In this document: positions 1,089 through 24,368 of the stretch, one piece after another
Numbering within the stretch: the stretch's first letter is position 1
How the letters are laid out: the number at the start of each line of letters is the position of its first letter
NCBI RefSeq assembly: GCF_001570725.1
Contig: NZ_BCNV01000001.1
Span: 1,116,001-1,180,000, forward strand
Reading direction: 5' to 3'
DNA: 64,000 nt
Source: Paenibacillus amylolyticus
GTDB taxonomy: Bacteria > Bacillota > Bacilli > Paenibacillales > Paenibacillaceae
Notes under the pieces: model-generated
Seen by the model: the letters and a program-made list of their open reading frames with translations, nothing else
What the model was told of the DNA's origin: nothing
Database searches by the model: none
Program-made: the position numbers and the translations under genes

Positions 1089-2030
1089 ATGGGTAAAATA
1101 GCATTTGTATTTCCCGGACAGGGATCACAGGCTGTAGGCATGGCGAAGGACGCGTATGAGTCCGTGCCTGCGGCAACCGAGATTTTTCGTACAGCGGATG
1201 AAACATTGGGTTTCTCGCTGAGTAATCTTGTATTTGAAGGACCGGAGACCGAGTTGAAACAGACATCAAATACACAACCGGCTCTGTTGACAGCAAGTAT
1301 TGCCTTGCTTGAAGCTTTCAAAGAAAAAGGAATTCAGCCTGATTATACGGCTGGACACAGTCTGGGAGAATACAGTGCACTGGTGGCAGCTGGCGTTCTA
1401 TCGTTTGCTGATGCAGTGAGCATTGTACGGGCTCGTGGTCAGTATATGGAACAGGCAGTTCCGGGTGGACAAGGAGCTATGGCTGCTGTGTTGGGTGCGG
1501 ATCGGGAAGCGCTGGGGGTGCTTTGCCGTGACGTATCTGAAAGTGGTCATGCGGTTGAACTTGCCAACATTAATTGTCCAGGACAAATCGTTGTTTCTGG
1601 TGTAAAGGAAGGCGTAGCTGCAGTCGCGGAGCGAGTGAAAGAAGCTGGCGGTAAACGCGCCATTGCATTGGAAGTAAGCGGCCCGTTCCACTCTTCATTG
1701 ATGAAGGGTGCAGCTGAGAAGCTGGAAGAGAAACTGAAAACCGTCACGTTCTCACCGGCAACGGTTCCTGTAGTCGCTAATGTGACGGCAAGACCTGCAG
1801 AGAATGGACAAGTTCAGGATTTGTTAACAGCTCAGGTCTATTCTCCTGTATTATGGGAAGACAGTGTGACATGGCTTATTGAGCAAGGCGTGGATACGTT
1901 CATCGAGATTGGGTCAGGCAGTGTATTGACCGGTTTGATTAAAAAAACAGATAAAACCGTTAAACTCTACAATGTGAACAGTCTTGAAACGCTCGAAGCA
2001 ACGGCAAGTGAATTAGAAGGAGTTATATGA
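1089..2030 (+). CDS. fabD: malonyl-CoA:ACP transacylase
   Basis: FabD moves the malonyl group from CoA to ACP and supplies the extender for elongation. The protein opens with the family signature VFPGQGSQ and carries the nucleophile Ser91 in GHSLGEYSA and the partner His201 in SGPFHSS. The start was set at the ATG at 1089 because GGGAG at 1075-1079 lies 9 bases upstream; the ATG at 1080 would touch that site. This gives 313 residues, the normal length. It lies 25 bases after fabH and is followed by a 211-base gap holding a structured repeat before fabG. Confidence 0.96.
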   Translation: MGKIAFVFPGQGSQAVGMAKDAYESVPAATEIFRTADETLGFSLSNLVFEGPETELKQTSNTQPALLTASIALLEAFKEKGIQPDYTAGHSLGEYSALVAAGVLSFADAVSIVRARGQYMEQAVPGGQGAMAAVLGADREALGVLCRDVSESGHAVELANINCPGQIVVSGVKEGVAAVAERVKEAGGKRAIALEVSGPFHSSLMKGAAEKLEEKLKTVTFSPATVPVVANVTARPAENGQVQDLLTAQVYSPVLWEDSVTWLIEQGVDTFIEIGSGSVLTGLIKKTDKTVKLYNVNSLETLEATASELEGVI

Positions 2031-2035
2031 GTTAA

Positions 2036-2215
2036 ACTAAACTTTTTACACGAGAACGGAGAGGACAGAAAAAAACTGAAGAAGCGGAGCGTTCGCCTTT
2101 ATCACCGGATTTTCCCTTTAGAAAAGGGAATCAAAAAAATCTGGGGATAACAGCGATCGGAAGTTTATTCTGTCATCGGAGTGGCAAGTGTAAACATTCT
2201 TTGGTTGAACTGATA
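2036..2215 (+). repeat. dispersed intergenic hairpin element, copy A
   Basis: This is the first of three related noncoding elements (others at 5640-5870 and 14095-14315). The core is a hairpin: left arm 2099-2113, right arm 2136-2150, 15 pairs with one mismatch and one G-U, capped by CCCTTT/AAAGGG at 2114-2119 and 2123-2128. Outside the stem all three copies share GAAGCG on the left and GCGATCG on the right, which can extend the pairing. It fills most of the fabD-fabG gap and has no open frame or U-tract. Confidence 0.8.
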
Positions 2216-2241
2216 TAGATTTGGGGAAAGGAGGAATGATT

Positions 2242-2991
2242 ATGTCTAAACCATTAGAAGGTAAAAATGCACTCGTTACCGGGGCATCCCGGGGAATTGG
2301 GCGCAGTATTGCACTGGCACTGGCTGAGGCTGGAGCGAACGTGGCCGTGAATTATGCGGGCAGTCAAGCGGCAGCTGAGGAAGTGGCGGAAGCAATCCGT
2401 GCCAAAGGAGTCAAGGCGATTACACTTCAAGCCAATGTTGGCCTGATGGATGAAGCTGAACAAATGGTCAAAGCTACACTCGAAGCATGGGGCAACGTTG
2501 ATATTCTGGTGAACAATGCTGGGATTACCCGTGATAATTTGATCATGCGTATGAAAGAGGAAGAATTCGATCAGGTTATTGAAACCAATCTCAAAGGTGT
2601 GTTTAACTGCCTTAAGGCGGTTACACGTCCAATGATGAAACAACGGTCGGGAAGAATTATCAATATCTCCTCGGTTGTAGGTGTGCTTGGCAATGCTGGA
2701 CAAGCGAACTATGTTGCTGCCAAAGCAGGAGTCATTGGTTTGACGAAGGCATCCGCTCGTGAACTGGCTTCTCGCGGAATCACAGTCAACTGTGTTGCAC
2801 CAGGTTTCATTGAGACGGATATGACAAAAGAGTTGTCTCAGGAGCTGGTGGACGGTATGCTGAGTGGTATTCCGTTGTCCCGTTTGGGTCAGCCGGATGA
2901 AATCGCCGGTGTAGTCACGTTCCTGGCTTCACAGGCTTCATCTTATATGACAGGGCAGACGCTGCATGTCGATGGTGGCATGTACATGTAA
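2242..2991 (+). CDS. fabG: 3-oxoacyl-ACP reductase
   Basis: FabG is the NADPH-dependent short-chain dehydrogenase that reduces beta-ketoacyl-ACP in each elongation cycle. Visible motifs are the nucleotide-binding TGASRGIG (13-20), NNAG (91-94) and the catalytic Ser144, Tyr157, Lys161 in the usual YxxxK arrangement. The ATG at 2242 was chosen because GGAGG at 2230-2234 is 7 bases upstream; TTG 2221 and ATG 2236 are less well placed. The protein is 249 residues, standard for the family. It sits between the repeat element and acpP. Confidence 0.97.
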
Positions 2992-5639: not shown

Positions 5640-5870
5640 TTAACTAAATATGTTGAATCTTATTTTACACAAAATGAAGAGTGCAGAACCAATCTGAAGA
5701 AGCGAAGCTAAAAGCTTTCTGAAAGAAAGCTACATCGGAAGCATATGCTCCGCATTTATCAACGGATTTTTCCCTTGGATAAGGGAATAAAGAAAATCTG
5801 GGGATAAGAGCGATCGGAGTATGGTACTGCAATTGGAGTGATCATGTGTAATAGCAATGGTTCAATTCAT
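5640..5870 (+). repeat. dispersed intergenic hairpin element, copy B
   Basis: The core stem pairs 5756-5770 with 5793-5807, capped by TCCCTT/AAGGGA at 5771-5776 and 5781-5786, matching copies A and C. Compared with them, this copy carries an extra small hairpin (AGCTTTCT/AGAAAGCT around 5708-5731) and a different outer helix in which CATA and CTCC on the left can pair with GGAG and TATG on the right. It occupies the 411-base gap between the rnc terminator and smc, where I see no gene. Confidence 0.75.
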
Positions 5871-5925
5871 TTAGGCGCTGGAATGCAATACTTGAAATTT
5901 GCAAGAGGAGGTGACGAGAAACCCT

Positions 5926-8900
5926 ATGTTTTTAAAACGGATTGAATTGGGTGGATTCAAGTCATTCGCCGACAAAACGGAGATGGAATTCGTTCGTGGC
6001 ATTACGGCTGTTGTAGGTCCGAACGGAAGTGGTAAGAGTAATATATCGGACGGAATCCGCTGGGTTCTGGGGGAACAAAGTGCCAAGTCGCTGCGTGGTG
6101 GCAAGATGGAAGATATCATTTTTGCAGGCAGTGACGCACGGAAGGCTGTTAATTTCGGCGAAGTTTCGCTAACGCTCGATAACGAGGATCACGCACTTGC
6201 ATTGGATTTCGGTGAAGTGACGGTAACTCGTCGTGTACATCGCAGTGGAGATAGTGAGTATTTTATCAACAAACAATCTTGTCGTTTGAAGGATATCACG
6301 GAGTTGTTTATGGATACCGGCATTGGTAAAGAGGCCTACTCGATTATTGGACAGGGGCGAATCGAAGAGATTCTGAGTACCCGTTCAGAGGATCGCAGGG
6401 GCATTTTTGAAGAGGCTTCAGGTATCGTTAAATATAAATCCCGCAAGCGGGATGCTACGCGCAAACTGGATGAGACAGAGCAGAATTTGCTGCGGATTCA
6501 TGATCTCGTGACCGAGTTGGAAGATCAGATTGGACCGCTTAAGGAACAATCGGAGAAAGCCATCCACTATAAGGAACTTCGTTCACAGCTCAAATCGCAG
6601 GAGATCTCGATGTATGTGTACCAGATCGAACAGATTCATGCTTCCTGGAGTAAGGCGAACGAAAGGCTGCAATCGCTAAAACAGGAAGAGGTTGGACTGG
6701 CCGCCATTGTCTCTACGCATGATGCCAAGCTGGAAAATGATAGGAATGCGCTGCGTATCCTGGAAACAGAGACAGAGCAACTGCAATCCGCATTATTACA
6801 ATTCAGTGAAGCGACGGAGAAAAGTGAAGGGCTTGGGGAACTGCTCAAAGAACGCTCGCACCATCTTCAAACGAATCAGGAGCAGCTCAAAGTAACGCTT
6901 GCCGCCAGTGAAGAGAGACATTCCCAACGGGAAACCGAGCTCCTTGCACTGCGTGAGAAGTTTGGCAAGCTTGAGCATGAACTGAATGATGTGAGAAATC
7001 AGTTGTCGCAGGAAGAGGCCAAACTCATCGGTGTCACAGGTGGCATTAGCCAGCAGCAAGAGGAAAGCCTCAAAGGCAACTTGCTGGAGCTAATGAATCA
7101 GATGGCCCAGACACGAAATGAAATTCGTTACGTGGACCAGCAGAAAGAAACGCTGGAGCGCAGAATGAATCGCGCGGTTGAGGAATCGGGCAAATGGGAA
7201 GATCAGAAGGAAACACTGGAGAGTCGCAAAGCGGACATTGAGAAAAAAGTTGTTCGCTTGGGCAAAGAAATCAGTGATCTACGTGGTGGCTACATTACGG
7301 AAAGTGAACGACTCCAGTCGCTGCAGAAGCTGTTGGAAGAAAGTCGGGGCACAGTCCGTAAATGGGAACAGAAACGTGAAGCTCAGGTCTCCCGCCGCGA
7401 TACGATGAAAGAGATGCAGGATGATTTTGACGGATTTATGCTGGGTGTCAAGGAGGTTCTCAAGGCTTCACGCAAAGGCACACTAAACGGTGTTCATGGA
7501 GCTGTGGCTGAACTCGTTAAAGTTCCTGAGAAGATCGAACTTGCAGTAGAGACAGCGATGGGCGCATCTTTGCAACATGTGGTCATGGAAAATGAATCAG
7601 TTTCAAGACAGGCGATTGCTTTTCTGAAGCAACGTCAATTGGGCCGGGCAACGTTCCTGCCTCTGGATGTCATTCGTCCACGTGCCATTGGAGCGGCTGA
7701 ACGTTCCATGATCGAAGGCATGGAGGGCTTTGTGGGGATCGGTGCTGATCTCGTACAATTCGAATCCAAGTATGCTTCGATCATTGGTAGCCTGCTCGGT
7801 AATGTTATCATTGCCGAAACGCTGGAGGTCGCGAATAAAATTGCGGCTCGATGCCAGTATCGTTTCCGGGTCGTGACGCTTGAAGGCGACGTGGTTAATG
7901 CGGGTGGTTCCATGACCGGTGGTAGCCAGCATAAGAAAAATGTGAGTCTGCTCAGTCGTAAACGGCAGCTGGACCAGCTCGACCAGGATATTTTGGATAC
8001 CGAAAATCAGATCGTGAAGCTGCATCGCAGTGTGGATGATGTAAAAGTTCAACTGGAGCAGTGTCAGGACAAACTGGACGAACTTCGTCAGTCCGGTGAC
8101 GATACCCGAAATGCAGAACAGCAGGCTTCGATGGAAATGAAGCAGGTAGAGCATGAGCTTCGACATGTGCTTGAACAGGTTGCTGTTGCAGGTCAGGAGA
8201 AGAGCGGGTTCACCGAAGAGATCAAAGAGCTGGATACAGCTCGCATCGTTGCTGTGAAGAAGTTAGAGCAGCTTGAAGAGGAAGAAAAAGCAACGCATCG
8301 TGCCATTCATGCAGCTGAGTTTGCTCGGAAAGCCAATGAATCCGCGAAGGAGGAATTGCAGAGCCAACTCACCGAATTGAAAGTGCGCGAAGGTAAGCTC
8401 GATCAGGAGCGATTCTCCAATGGGGAACAATTGCGGCGTCTGGAGCGGGAAGTGGAGTCGCTGGTGAAAGATCTTCGTCAGAATCGCACGTTGCTGGCTT
8501 CGATGGAAGCAGATCTCAAGAAAACACAGACCGAGAGTGTCAAGCAGATTGAAGATCTGAACCAGTACAAGCTGAAAAAAGCGGAAGCTTCCCAGGAGTT
8601 GGACTTCAAACGTGCTGCCCGAAGTGAGTTGTCGAAGAAGCTTGAGCTTGCCGAGAGCGAAACGAAGGAACAGCGCATGCAGTTGAAAGCGGTGGAAGAG
8701 CAGATGCGACAGACGGAAATTTCCGTGAACCGGCTGGATGTTGAGTTGGAAAATATACTGCGGAAGCTGACGGATGAATACGAACTGGGCTATGAGCTCG
8801 CCAAAGAGCGTTATCCTGTACCGGAAGATGTGGAGCATACACAGGCAGAGGTACAGAAGCTCAAGCGCAGCATATCCGCCCTGGGTGAGGTTAACCTGGG

Positions 8901-9495
8901 AGCGATTGAGGAGTTCCAGCGGGTCAATGAGCGTTATGAGTTCCTGAGTGAACAGAAGAATGACCTGGTGGAAGCTAAAACAACGTTGTATCAGGTTATT
9001 CGGGAAATGGAAGACGAGATGGCGAAGCGATTCAAGATCACGTTTGATGCGATCCGCCGTGAGTTCGGTACCGTGTTTACTAAGCTGTTTGGCGGGGGAC
9101 GTGCTGACCTTGTTCTGATGGACCCGGAGCGCTTGCTTGAAACGGGAATAGATATTGTGGCCCAGCCACCAGGCAAGAAACTGCAAAACCTGCAACTGTT
9201 ATCTGGTGGGGAGCGGGCTTTGACGGCGATGGCTCTGTTATTTGCCATCCTGCATGTCAAACCTGTACCATTCTGCGTGCTGGATGAAGTTGAGGCAGCG
9301 TTGGACGAAGCCAACGTGGTACGTTTTGCCCAGTACTTGCGTGAGTTCTCCGAACAAACTCAGTTCATCGTTGTTACCCATCGTAAAGGTACAATGGAAG
9401 AAGCGGATGTATTGTACGGTGTTACCATGGAAGAGGGCGGCGTATCCAAGCTTGTTTCGGTTAAACTGGAAGATGAGGAAGCTGTAATTGCCTGA
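5926..9495 (+). CDS. smc: chromosome segregation ATPase SMC
   Basis: SMC works with ScpA and ScpB to compact and segregate the chromosome. The N-terminal ATPase half carries Walker A GPNGSGKSN at 31-39; long coiled coils flank a hinge at roughly 521-660; the C-terminal half has the ABC signature LSGGE near 1092 and Walker B CVLDEVEAALDE near 1118. The length of 1189 residues is full. The ATG at 5926 follows GGAGGTGA (5907-5914). Its place after rnc and before ftsY matches Bacillus. Copy B of the intergenic hairpin element lies directly upstream. Confidence 0.98.
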   Translation: MFLKRIELGGFKSFADKTEMEFVRGITAVVGPNGSGKSNISDGIRWVLGEQSAKSLRGGKMEDIIFAGSDARKAVNFGEVSLTLDNEDHALALDFGEVTVTRRVHRSGDSEYFINKQSCRLKDITELFMDTGIGKEAYSIIGQGRIEEILSTRSEDRRGIFEEASGIVKYKSRKRDATRKLDETEQNLLRIHDLVTELEDQIGPLKEQSEKAIHYKELRSQLKSQEISMYVYQIEQIHASWSKANERLQSLKQEEVGLAAIVSTHDAKLENDRNALRILETETEQLQSALLQFSEATEKSEGLGELLKERSHHLQTNQEQLKVTLAASEERHSQRETELLALREKFGKLEHELNDVRNQLSQEEAKLIGVTGGISQQQEESLKGNLLELMNQMAQTRNEIRYVDQQKETLERRMNRAVEESGKWEDQKETLESRKADIEKKVVRLGKEISDLRGGYITESERLQSLQKLLEESRGTVRKWEQKREAQVSRRDTMKEMQDDFDGFMLGVKEVLKASRKGTLNGVHGAVAELVKVPEKIELAVETAMGASLQHVVMENESVSRQAIAFLKQRQLGRATFLPLDVIRPRAIGAAERSMIEGMEGFVGIGADLVQFESKYASIIGSLLGNVIIAETLEVANKIAARCQYRFRVVTLEGDVVNAGGSMTGGSQHKKNVSLLSRKRQLDQLDQDILDTENQIVKLHRSVDDVKVQLEQCQDKLDELRQSGDDTRNAEQQASMEMKQVEHELRHVLEQVAVAGQEKSGFTEEIKELDTARIVAVKKLEQLEEEEKATHRAIHAAEFARKANESAKEELQSQLTELKVREGKLDQERFSNGEQLRRLEREVESLVKDLRQNRTLLASMEADLKKTQTESVKQIEDLNQYKLKKAEASQELDFKRAARSELSKKLELAESETKEQRMQLKAVEEQMRQTEISVNRLDVELENILRKLTDEYELGYELAKERYPVPEDVEHTQAEVQKLKRSISALGEVNLGAIEEFQRVNERYEFLSEQKNDLVEAKTTLYQVIREMEDEMAKRFKITFDAIRREFGTVFTKLFGGGRADLVLMDPERLLETGIDIVAQPPGKKLQNLQLLSGGERALTAMALLFAILHVKPVPFCVLDEVEAALDEANVVRFAQYLREFSEQTQFIVVTHRKGTMEEADVLYGVTMEEGGVSKLVSVKLEDEEAVIA

Positions 9496-14094: not shown

Positions 14095-14315
14095 CTTAAT
14101 ATGTTGGATTAGATATTGAATTAAAATATTTTTGGGTATGAGTGACTTCGTAGCAGTGCAGGGGACGGGATCGATTCTGGAGAAGCGTTAGCGTTCGCCT
14201 TTATCACCTCATTTTCACCTTTTAAAGTAAGTTTGAAAAATGAGGGGGTAACAGCGATCGAAAGAACGAACCGTCGCCGGAACGATCATACGAGAGTCGA
14301 AGTAGCTGTTTAGTT
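14095..14315 (+). repeat. dispersed intergenic hairpin element, copy C
   Basis: The core stem pairs 14201-14215 with 14237-14251. At stem positions 9 and 10 the left arm reads TC where copies A and B read GG, and the right arm changes in step so pairing is kept (G-C becomes C-G and G-U becomes U-A). The flanks GCGTTCGCCTTTATC and ACAGCGATCG are near-identical to copy A. It fills the khpA-rimM gap, with no open frame. Confidence 0.8.
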
Positions 14316-14339
14316 TGATTTAATTTCATAGGAGGAAAT

Positions 14340-14852
14340 ATGGCAGAGTTTATGAATGTAGGTAAAATCGTCAATACGCATGGAATTCGCGGCGAGGTAA
14401 GAATCATGCCTTTAACTGATTTCCCGGAAGTGCGTTTCGCGAAAAATGCAGAGTTGTTTTTCTTTACACCAGATAATCATCCAGTCATGGTCAACGTGGA
14501 ATCTTCACGTTTGCATAAGAATATGTATATTCTTCGTCTGAAAGAGTATGGCAATATTAATGAAGTCGAGAAGTTTAAAGGCGGCATGGCCAAAGTGTTG
14601 AAAGAGAACCTGGCTGAACTGGAGGAAGGTGAATACTACTTCCATCAAATCGTTGGGTGTTCTGTCATCACTGAAGAGGGTGAAACGCTTGGAACCATCT
14701 CTGAAATTTTGACTCCAGGTGCCAATGATGTATGGGTTGTCAAAACGCCAGCAGGCAAAGAAGTACTGATTCCTGTTATTGATGATGTAGTACTTGATGT
14801 GGACATCGAACAGCAGCAAGTGAAGATTCATCTGATGGAAGGACTGCTGTAA
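14340..14852 (+). CDS. rimM: 16S rRNA processing protein RimM
   Basis: RimM helps mature the 30S head, binding S19. The 170-residue protein has the N-terminal RimM domain ([17 protein letters not shown]) and a C-terminal PRC-barrel (ending [15 protein letters not shown]). The ATG at 14340 follows AGGAGG. It ends 1 base before trmD, so translation is probably coupled. Confidence 0.97.
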
Positions 14853-22310: not shown

Positions 22311-24368
22311 TTGAATATCGGTTCCATGATTAAGGGGTTAATGGGAGATAGTAAGCCCGGCAATGCCAAACCGCTTGAATTAAAGGAAGGTCAGGTGGTT
22401 CGTGGCTCCGTCGTTAGTGTATCCGATGATGGGGGAGAAGCGGTTCTGCAGATTCAAGGTGTGCAGGTGCGCGCCAAGTTGGAGACTCCACTCCGTCCGG
22501 GTGAGACCACGTTGCTTCAAGTACAGCCTCCAGGTGAAAATGGCATAACGGTAATGAAACCTATGGCGGGAACACTTGCTGAGCTGCCACAAGCTTCGCT
22601 GAACAACCTGCTTAAGGATGTAGGACTGCCGGATACGAAAGGAAATCGGGAACTGTTACTTGCCATGCAGCGTAGCGGATTGCCGCTAACGAAGGATAAT
22701 GTGGCTATGGTCCAAAATATGATGACAGCCAAACCTGCACAGGTACCTGTGGAAGAATGGGTGCAGGCGACGGGAATTGCTTTTCAGCGTGGTCTCCCGG
22801 TTACGGCGGAAACGGTAAAAGGATTACATCAGACGGTGTTTGGCCCCCCTCTGCATCAGTTGTTAAGCGGGTTGGCTGATCAGTTGGAAACGATGTTGAC
22901 TCAAACAACAGGTAAACCGGCATTGCCTGGAGAACAATCGGCTGCCATGAAACCAACTGTTGTGGCTGGTGTGCCTGTATTGCCGAATGCAGCGCAGATG
23001 GAAGAAGGGTTGGCTACATCAGGTAATGGCCGTCAGGTAGCTGGAACAGGAACTCCTGTTTTGTCGACGCAACAAGGACAAGCGGCATTGGCAGGAGCTA
23101 TATCTATGACGGATGGCGGGGCAGAGGATGCAGCTAATGCGGTGAAAGGAAACCTGCAGACCGGCGGAGGAGCAGGAAATGCTGAAGCCGCGACGAAGGC
23201 AATTGCCGGCAATATTGAAACGGCTGGCAAAGGAGGCGGAGGTATTCCGTCTGGAACCGGAATACCTGGAGAGGGCCCGCGCGGGGCTGACGCGGGCCAA
23301 GCTGGGAGCCGCCCGGGTATACCAGGGGCGGCAGCAGAATCTGTGGCTGGCCGTGTAAATGCAGGCCAGTCTGAAGCAGGCGCGGCCGGTCGGACTGACG
23401 GCCGCGCTGAAACGCCTGCTGCTGCGGGGACTCCGTCCGCAGCAGGCCAGGCGGCGCCAGCAGCGCCTACGGCAGCGCAGCTGGCGCCCAAGCTGCTGGC
23501 GCTGCTGGACGCCCTGCGCAGCGCGTCCACTGCCGCACCGGCACAGCCTGGTGCGGCAGCACGGGCCGCCCCTGCATCGCAGGGCGGCCAGGCGGCTGCG
23601 GCTGCCGGAGGCGTGCCGCAGCCGTTGCCAGCCGGCGCTGATGCGCCGCCGGCTGGCGGTGGTGCCGCAGCACCTGCGGGAGCTGCGGCAGTGCCCGCGC
23701 CTGTCACCCACGGGGGGGACCCGTGGGTGGGGCGCGTGCTGAAGCTGCTCGGTGCGGAGCACGAGCAGCAGGCCGTTCACGGCGCGGCAGCGCAGCCGCG
23801 CGTGGGGGATGCGGCGAGTCCGGCAAATGCGGACACGCTGAAGGGTCTGCTGCTGCAGCTTGCCAGCAGCGACGGTGCACCGGCGGCGCTCAAGGATGCC
23901 GCCGGACAAGCGGTGCAATATCTGACAGGTCAGCAGTTATTGCTGACGACAGATCGCAGCGCTACATTTGCACAGATGCATTGGTTTATTCCGATTACCG
24001 GACCAGATGGGGAAGAAACAGCTTCCGTTCAAATTCAATCTCGTCGTGGACCTCGCGGAGAATTGGATGCGTCCAACTGTCGTCTATGGTTCGATCTGGA
24101 TATGAAAAGTCTTGGGCCTACACTGGTAGATGTACATGTGGTTAACAATATTGTCAGTCTGCGTGTATTGAATGATCGCGAAGGGATGGGACCACTCCTG
24201 GAGAGTGGACGAGACGTAATCCATCAGGCATTGGATAAGCTGGGCTATCAATTGCTAACTTTCAAGACGGAACCGTGGCCTGCGGGCCAGGAGCCGGGCG
24301 CGGAGCGGAAAATGACGGCCTCGGACTATAGTCCTGAACGTTACAAAGGGGTGGACTTGAAAGTATGA
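22311..24368 (+). CDS. FliK-like protein with extreme Ala/Gly/Pro linker (YlqG position)
   Basis: A 685-residue protein in the place of B. subtilis ylqG. Residues 1-90 contain a small beta-rich domain, 90-200 are helical, about 320-520 are a low-complexity Ala/Gly/Pro/Gln linker, and the last 130 residues (MHWFIPITGPDGEETASVQI onward) resemble the C-terminal hook-length-control domain of FliK. The linker DNA (about 23270-23900) is extremely GC-rich compared with its flanks. TTG start after AAGGAGGGGGAG. It overlaps the FlhB-C-like gene by ATGA, suggesting the pair acts together. Role unknown; the FliK relation is inference from fold pattern and partner. Confidence 0.65.
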   Translation: MNIGSMIKGLMGDSKPGNAKPLELKEGQVVRGSVVSVSDDGGEAVLQIQGVQVRAKLETPLRPGETTLLQVQPPGENGITVMKPMAGTLAELPQASLNNLLKDVGLPDTKGNRELLLAMQRSGLPLTKDNVAMVQNMMTAKPAQVPVEEWVQATGIAFQRGLPVTAETVKGLHQTVFGPPLHQLLSGLADQLETMLTQTTGKPALPGEQSAAMKPTVVAGVPVLPNAAQMEEGLATSGNGRQVAGTGTPVLSTQQGQAALAGAISMTDGGAEDAANAVKGNLQTGGGAGNAEAATKAIAGNIETAGKGGGGIPSGTGIPGEGPRGADAGQAGSRPGIPGAAAESVAGRVNAGQSEAGAAGRTDGRAETPAAAGTPSAAGQAAPAAPTAAQLAPKLLALLDALRSASTAAPAQPGAAARAAPASQGGQAAAAAGGVPQPLPAGADAPPAGGGAAAPAGAAAVPAPVTHGGDPWVGRVLKLLGAEHEQQAVHGAAAQPRVGDAASPANADTLKGLLLQLASSDGAPAALKDAAGQAVQYLTGQQLLLTTDRSATFAQMHWFIPITGPDGEETASVQIQSRRGPRGELDASNCRLWFDLDMKSLGPTLVDVHVVNNIVSLRVLNDREGMGPLLESGRDVIHQALDKLGYQLLTFKTEPWPAGQEPGAERKMTASDYSPERYKGVDLKV

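Follow-up and report, generated by a model that had tools for sequence, protein, structure and literature searches.

The window analysed here, a stretch of 64,000 nucleotides from the Paenibacillus amylolyticus contig NZ_BCNV01000001.1, carries much the same long hairpin in front of three genes, fabG, smc and rimM. Its presence there raises the question of whether such hairpins are mobile repeats, cis-acting RNAs or protein-binding DNA structures. An earlier note, made from the sequence, had offered these as separate options. They prove not to be exclusive, since the element is at once mobile, structured and biased toward the sense strand of neighbouring genes, and a role as RNA is the probable consequence.

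Anatomy of the element

All three hairpins (copies A, B and C) lie where the earlier note had placed them, with cores at 2099–2150, 5756–5807 and 14201–14251. The compensatory changes that it had read in the long stem of copy C are also present in the sequence, with CCGG facing CTGG in copy A and CCTC facing GAGG in copy C. The proposed pairing of CGTTCGC with GCGATCG was found as well; however, this helix is not a separate outer one but the base of the long stem, interrupted by one T-T or G-T mismatch. Outside this base lie two features that had not been described: another stem, whose covariation is strong, and a mini-hairpin of the form GC-GNA-GC. When the copies were aligned with their flanks, the hairpin proved to occupy the middle of a longer element of ~190–230 bp (Table 1).

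The ends of copy A have 2 and 3 mismatches to TATATAAGTTGAACTAA, and this copy is the best-scoring match of the covariance model in its own genome (155.3 bits). Its left end (2024–2030, TATATGA) supplies the stop codon of fabD; thus, the insertion rewrote the end of the FabD protein compared with relatives that have no element at this position. On the sense strand, the sequence 3' of the hairpin contains no T-run of the kind that would mark an intrinsic terminator. Elsewhere in the window (23428–23528) there is a GC-rich inverted repeat of 37 nt, 70% complementary, with 27 nt between its arms.

Table 1. Coordinates of the three copies and associated features in the window
Feature	Position	Strand	Remarks
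Copy A, whole element, 194 bp, short form	2024..2217	+	between fabD and fabG
Copy A, left terminal inverted repeat	2024..2040	+	
Copy A, right terminal inverted repeat	2201..2217	-	
Copy A, structured core (outer stem, mini-hairpin, long stem)	2054..2187	+	model match C1:1118054-1118187; pair counts of alignment A1
Copy B, whole element, 229 bp including both TA copies	5645..5873	+	long form, with the extra hairpin module; lies before smc
TA target duplication at site B, left copy	5645..5646	.	
TA target duplication at site B, right copy	5872..5873	.	
Copy B, extra hairpin module in left arm, approximate borders	5709..5750	+	in the window and L316, not in L314 or L325
Copy C, whole element, older, ends decayed, approximate borders	14098..14328	+	before rimM
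Copy C, structured core	14155..14288	+	model match C1:1130154-1130288, 116.6 bits
fabG, 3' of copy A	2242..2991	+	NCBIfam FabG
smc, 3' of copy B	5926..9495	+	NCBIfam TIGR02168
rimM, 3' of copy C	14340..14852	+	NCBIfam TIGR02273

Conservation of the fold

The fold was assessed in two alignments. Alignment A1 comprises 42 of 87 sequences found by anchors (some of the 87 being spurious), nearly all of them short forms from the same genus, and alignment A4, made with MAFFT, comprises 46 hand-picked copies, all from genomes of other genera. The consensus fold was poor when copies were aligned with long flanks and was mended by trimming to the core. A1 supports 38 pairs, with 92.5% of cells paired and double-sided changes at 21 pairs, and A4 supports 39 pairs, with 94.2% of cells paired and double-sided changes at 35 of the 39. 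The number of double-sided cells was 110 in A1, compared to 26.6 in shuffles and 14–23 when the alignment was slid, and 348 in A4, compared to 85.2 and 59–113 respectively. Selection on structure, which the earlier note had suspected from three copies and proposed to examine for covariation, is therefore strongly supported as the reason that the fold is kept.

The stem sequences are wholly replaced among copies, and the blocks GGAGAAGCGnAGCGkTCGCCTTTG and CAACAGCGATCGGA are largely constant. The first of these blocks contains the mini-hairpin, of the form GC-GNA-GC or GC-GNNA-GC, whose outer pair is G-C in 42 of the 46 rows of A4 and A-U in 4; the loop pattern is unmatched in 14 of 42 rows of A1 and 4 of 46 rows of A4. 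Cells with G-U outnumber those with A-C by 78:10 in A1 and 91:25 in A4 (17 vs 3 and 21 vs 5 when counted by pair), in counts that ignore kinship and thus are not exact probabilities. This excess points to a constraint on the single-stranded sense strand.

Copy number and taxonomic distribution

With the 81-nt core (2085–2165) as a probe, blastn returned at least 40 long matches in the same genome (40 of 192 candidates scored), and covariance model R1 found at least 150 copies there, all with E≤1.6e-8; copy B is not among the 150 scored copies and was found by another search. These numbers place the hairpins far beyond chance. The earlier note had held few further copies to be a point against its reading and had suggested a covariance search of Paenibacillus genomes, which thus yielded many.

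In a sample of the order, with up to 16 copies scored per genome, R1 matched 147 of 198 genomes, representing 27 of 43 genera. Under stricter filters, matches were obtained in 12 of 151 genomes of a class sample and 5 of 299 genomes of a phylum sample, all from the host's own family. Thirty genomes, picked for having R1 matches, carry from 1 to 95 copies apiece. Two plasmid records also match, both from Paenibacillus cellulosilyticus. A phage origin was rejected, as no match was found among 50,697 phage records. The exact core pattern is present in 27 IMG/VR contigs (L461–L487), many of which measure ~13–29 kb and may represent prophages flanked by host DNA. Closely spaced pairs of copies, a few hundred bases apart, were seen on opposite or mixed strands in L206, L211, L214, L240 and L241, and in direct order in L218, L232 and L233.

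Ends and partner transposons

Within its own genus, the element has the inverted ends CTATATAAGTTGAACTAA...TTAGTTCAACTTATATAG. With up to 2 mismatches, the end motif occurs 62 + 64 times in the P. amylolyticus genome, compared to 1 + 2 times in the control. Both ends were found (≤3 mismatches) in 30 copies, of which 26 measure 190–196 bp and 4, representing the long form with the extra hairpin module, measure 230–233 bp. The bases flanking these 30 copies are C and G in 13, C in 19 and G in 21. Allowing one mismatch, ends of this IS630 type were detected in 33 relatives out of 59 and in 4 genera out of 17, with almost all cases belonging to the same genus.

The connection to IS630 comes from G058, a genome of another genus in the order, where identical ends surround a 1,176-bp stretch with two open reading frames, in an element that begins at the contig end. 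The second frame matches DDE_3 and the NCBIfam IS630 model (149.3 bits, cut-off 100); the first contains helix-turn-helix domains and reaches 93.3 bits with NCBIfam IS630, just below the cut-off of 100. Among 75 genomes of the genus Paenibacillus, relatives were found in 18, and the P. amylolyticus genome has no IS630 match at E≤1e-10. Among 30 transposase loci fetched from the genus, seven (L117, L118, L119, L121, L127, L135 and L136) have both ends with summed mismatches ≤4 and span 1,128–1,171 bp, and three (L129, L139 and L143) have weaker end pairs. At L110 (37–1082) the IS630 transposase is divided between two frames that overlap, possibly a sign of programmed frameshifting. IS630 elements characteristically duplicate TA at CTAG targets.

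In other genera the same core lies, as read from the sequence, under other inverted ends: copies in G130 end in GAGGCCACTGAAAAA, those in G136 have ends of the GGCTCAAAAC type, and those in G164, G153 and others have ends of the AAAGTCCGGTGAATA type, with IS630-like ends kept in L242 and L214. That genome contains 41 + 32 instances of the G130 ends, compared to 0 in the control. In G203, from the same genus as G130, exact copies of the G130-type 15-bp ends enclose a 1,677-bp element, which encodes an IS1182-family transposase (NF033551, 5.3e-112) and has a 9-bp direct repeat outside it. No insertion sequence was found for the AAAGTCCGGTGAATA-type ends, which show only short spacings among the places listed (9 genomes, 1 mismatch). 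The element has terminal inverted repeats in common with IS630 and IS1182 and differs from both in having no transposase gene, and its core has no obvious likeness to the sequences of either family. The ends shared with an IS1182-family element indicate that transposons of more than one kind have probably carried the core.

Empty and filled sites among relatives

Scanning with SMC as the query identified 80 named loci (L314–L393), four of them at 99% SMC identity (Paenibacillus sp. LS1, P. polymyxa ISL-58 according to the record title, P. xylanexedens and Paenibacillus sp. SZ31). L336, L390 and L315 are titled Neobacillus mesonae, Bacillus sp. and P. polymyxa; their SMC proteins are 74–99% identical to that of the window, and these names are probably wrong. 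Comparisons of empty and filled sites were judged by eye.

Site B is the one place where a target duplication could be resolved together with an empty site. The empty site reads GTTAACTAGGCGCTG in L324, and L317 and L318 have AACTAGGCGCTG in common. The window reads GTTAAC-TA-element-TA-GGCGCTG, such that TA is doubled inside CTAG. In L315, a pair of ends alone remains at this site, and the covariance model finds it filled in L314, L316 and L325. Given the inverted ends shared with IS630 and the empty site with its doubled TA, the element in Paenibacillus is a miniature inverted-repeat transposable element (MITE), and mobility of the IS630-ended form is established at one clean site. The MITE-like option of the earlier note is thereby borne out, through the same terminal repeats and target duplication that it had counted against its own reading.

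At site A, the model finds the element in L314, L315, L316 and L325; the closest relatives are thus filled, the others are without the full element, and remnants were recognized by eye in L320, L323, L374 and L388. Site C gives a model match in 16 of the 80 loci. The inner hairpin at this site has been deleted in L318, L325, L328 and L349, and L324 has no element there (both by eye), which indicates that single copies are dispensable. Such decay of old insertions suggests that what maintains the fold is the success of spreading copies and not a need at each gene.

Close relatives differ in whether the element at a given site contains the extra inner hairpin module, which is thus gained or lost in place, similar to the boxB modules of BOX. 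Site A has the long form in L314, L315 and L316 and the short form in the window and L325, and site B has the long form in the window and L316 and the short form in L314 and L325. In L315 the extra module at site A is now a near-perfect palindrome.

Placement relative to genes

Genes beside the copies were called with our own codon-score finder of open reading frames, whose starts may lie too far upstream. For the P. amylolyticus genome, placement was scored in 105 copies from fetched loci, a subset of all copies, after dropping duplicates and copies less than 500 bp from a locus end; for the sets beyond it, duplicates and copies less than 400 bp from a locus end were dropped. In gaps between genes of the same direction, 69 copies are sense and 9 are antisense (p 1.4e-12); the remaining copies lie in divergent gaps (15), in convergent gaps (9) or have one side uncalled (3). 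The distance from the end of the core to the next sense start is 30–100 nt for 45 of the 69 tandem copies (median 59) and for 11 of the 15 divergent copies, and the upstream stop lies between 6 and 1,139 nt away. Among 20 copies in which both ends have at most 2 mismatches, 11 are sense and 2 antisense.

The same bias is seen elsewhere in the genus (41:7 sense to antisense, 64 copies) and in further sets of 40 (21:5), 17 (10:1) and 24 copies (16:5), all of which hold orthologous copies and are therefore not fully independent; the set of 40, from other genera, can include L200, L202 and L203 of the same genus. The upstream stop is 14–18 nt away in 10 of 17 values of the 16:5 set, some of them orthologous. 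With so tight an upstream distance in other genera, the common feature is sense placement at gene boundaries, and not always a position in a 5' leader.

The genes 3' of ten scanned copies (fabG, rimM, thymidylate synthase, enolase, argG, carA, cbiD, msrA, manganese pyrophosphatase and a PcrA-like helicase), and smc in addition, are mixed and have no common function. A promoter in the right end was dropped as an explanation because other genera carry other ends.

Proposed role and competing explanations

With moderate confidence, we interpret the element as a non-autonomous, transposon-borne cassette for a structured RNA, which lies mostly sense at gene boundaries, is transcribed within mRNAs and acts in cis. 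An IS630-family transposase, supplied in trans, would move it into CTAG targets and double the TA, and the core would have spread under the ends of more than one kind of transposon, IS630 and, in one genus, IS1182. As the copies lie at gene boundaries and are mostly sense (in their own genus mostly shortly before a start codon), the core is most likely transcribed within mRNAs, and its usual sense orientation with neighbouring genes suggests that it probably acts as a piece of the mRNA too. There it would fold, under selection on the sense strand, into a branched hairpin of outer stem, GC-GNA-GC mini-hairpin and long stem. Such a structure, next to the ribosome binding site, may mark an mRNA boundary or shield it, perhaps from decay in the 5'-to-3' direction; alternatively, the core may serve as a cut site or a protein site on the mRNA. 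The function of the core as RNA is inferred.

The fold might instead aid the mobility or replication of a purely selfish MITE, with the sense bias arising from the loss of antisense insertions that harm expression. This is an unlikely account but one to be taken seriously, as it fits the MITE anatomy, the decay at old sites and the downstream genes without common function. DDE transposases, however, require only the ends of an element, and here the core is kept under different ends; the G-U excess represents a strand-specific constraint, and copies with fresh ends are already 11 sense to 2 antisense, although 13 copies are few. A strand-specific constraint could also act on DNA, if a protein reads the sense strand as single-stranded DNA or as a cruciform, as for REP sequences and integron sites. 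The sequence d(GCGAAGC), of the GC-GNA-GC type, is especially stable as DNA, a mini-hairpin of GC-GNA-GC or GC-GNNA-GC form is present in most rows, and G-T pairs are tolerated in single-stranded DNA too, which also weighs against the RNA reading. We nevertheless consider a DNA-level signal improbable, because placement relative to transcription is not expected of a signal based on replication or cruciforms.

The paired changes themselves could in principle come from template switching that perfects quasi-palindromes, and not from selection. Such correction is known to act on long near-palindromes, and the module at site A of L315 became a near-perfect palindrome. The fixed unpaired blocks and the fixed mismatch in the long stem would have been erased by correction, yet they persist across genera, and an excess of G-U over A-C is not expected from it, making this origin very improbable. 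A riboswitch, leader or other cis-regulatory RNA that is fixed and immobile would agree with the conserved fold and the position before start codons; it is scarcely credible for an element with at least 150 copies, unrelated downstream genes, empty sites and no Rfam match, and was rejected because of the copy number, the empty sites and the lack of relation among the genes.

The definition of a bacterial MITE usually rests on its ends, the interior being regarded as filler. In the present element the conserved part is the interior, whose fold survives wholesale replacement of the stems across an order and which is found, sense-oriented at gene boundaries, with ends from two transposon families that are unrelated. 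Should the structured-RNA cassette be the correct interpretation, mobile DNA would have spread an element for post-transcriptional control over the whole genome. This is directly testable, as culturable Paenibacillus offer many natural copies for which the empty sites are known. A broader version is conceivable, which we hold only tentatively and judge less likely than not to be true: a transposable regulatory RNA, spread through the Paenibacillales on unrelated transposon ends (at least those of IS630 and IS1182) and read by a host factor, would form an order-wide post-transcriptional network in which up to 150 or more mRNA boundaries in a genome carry one and the same control element in sense orientation.

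Relation to known families and repeats

The view of the earlier note that no named family fits the hairpin holds for Rfam 15 and for the literature searched, at the level of titles and the first part of abstracts. Rfam 15 gave 0 gathering matches in the window, 0 matches at E≤1 in five loci and only sub-threshold matches in 19 loci, and a known Rfam RNA family was rejected on these grounds. At L208 (1869–1995), outside the element, there is a weak match to Rfam BsrG (34.6 bits, gathering score 55). Among the papers listed on Paenibacillus MITEs, REPs and repeats, none deals with this element, judged by title or start of abstract, and PMC4666352 and PMC3733652 do not mention Paenibacillus.

RUP, of Streptococcus pneumoniae, is an IS630-type element. 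Together with BOX from the same species it resembles the present element, by description, in being high-copy, intergenic and mobile with predicted RNA folds; both differ from it in sequence and host order, again by description, and in the present element one sense-biased core is found under unrelated transposon ends. According to the excerpted text of PMC3049150, one S. pneumoniae genome contains 125 BOX and 110 RUP copies, and BOX is modular, can provide upstream genes with their stop codons and has been proposed to depend for its movement on an insertion sequence with similar ends.

The interspersed repeats bcr1–bcr18 of the Bacillus cereus group, in the portion of PMC3446304 consulted, are in some cases MITE-like and often lie in untranslated regions or operon gaps, with conserved folds for bcr10 and bcr18. 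They are described there as specific to that group and are set apart from the present core by that description; in the samples of the class and the phylum, R1 matched nothing beyond the family of its host. Correia and ERIC elements are MITE-like, and their transcribed copies can alter mRNA, for example through RNase III or in an orientation-specific manner (excerpts of PMC10969869 and PMC3049150). Their hosts are Gram-negative; the likeness is one of description, and the effect of the present element on RNA is putative. REP and BIME sequences are likewise extragenic hairpins present in many copies, some of which are paired with an inverted neighbour, but REPs measure 20–40 bp (PMC3733652, in part), in contrast to ~190 bp with transposon ends for the element described here.
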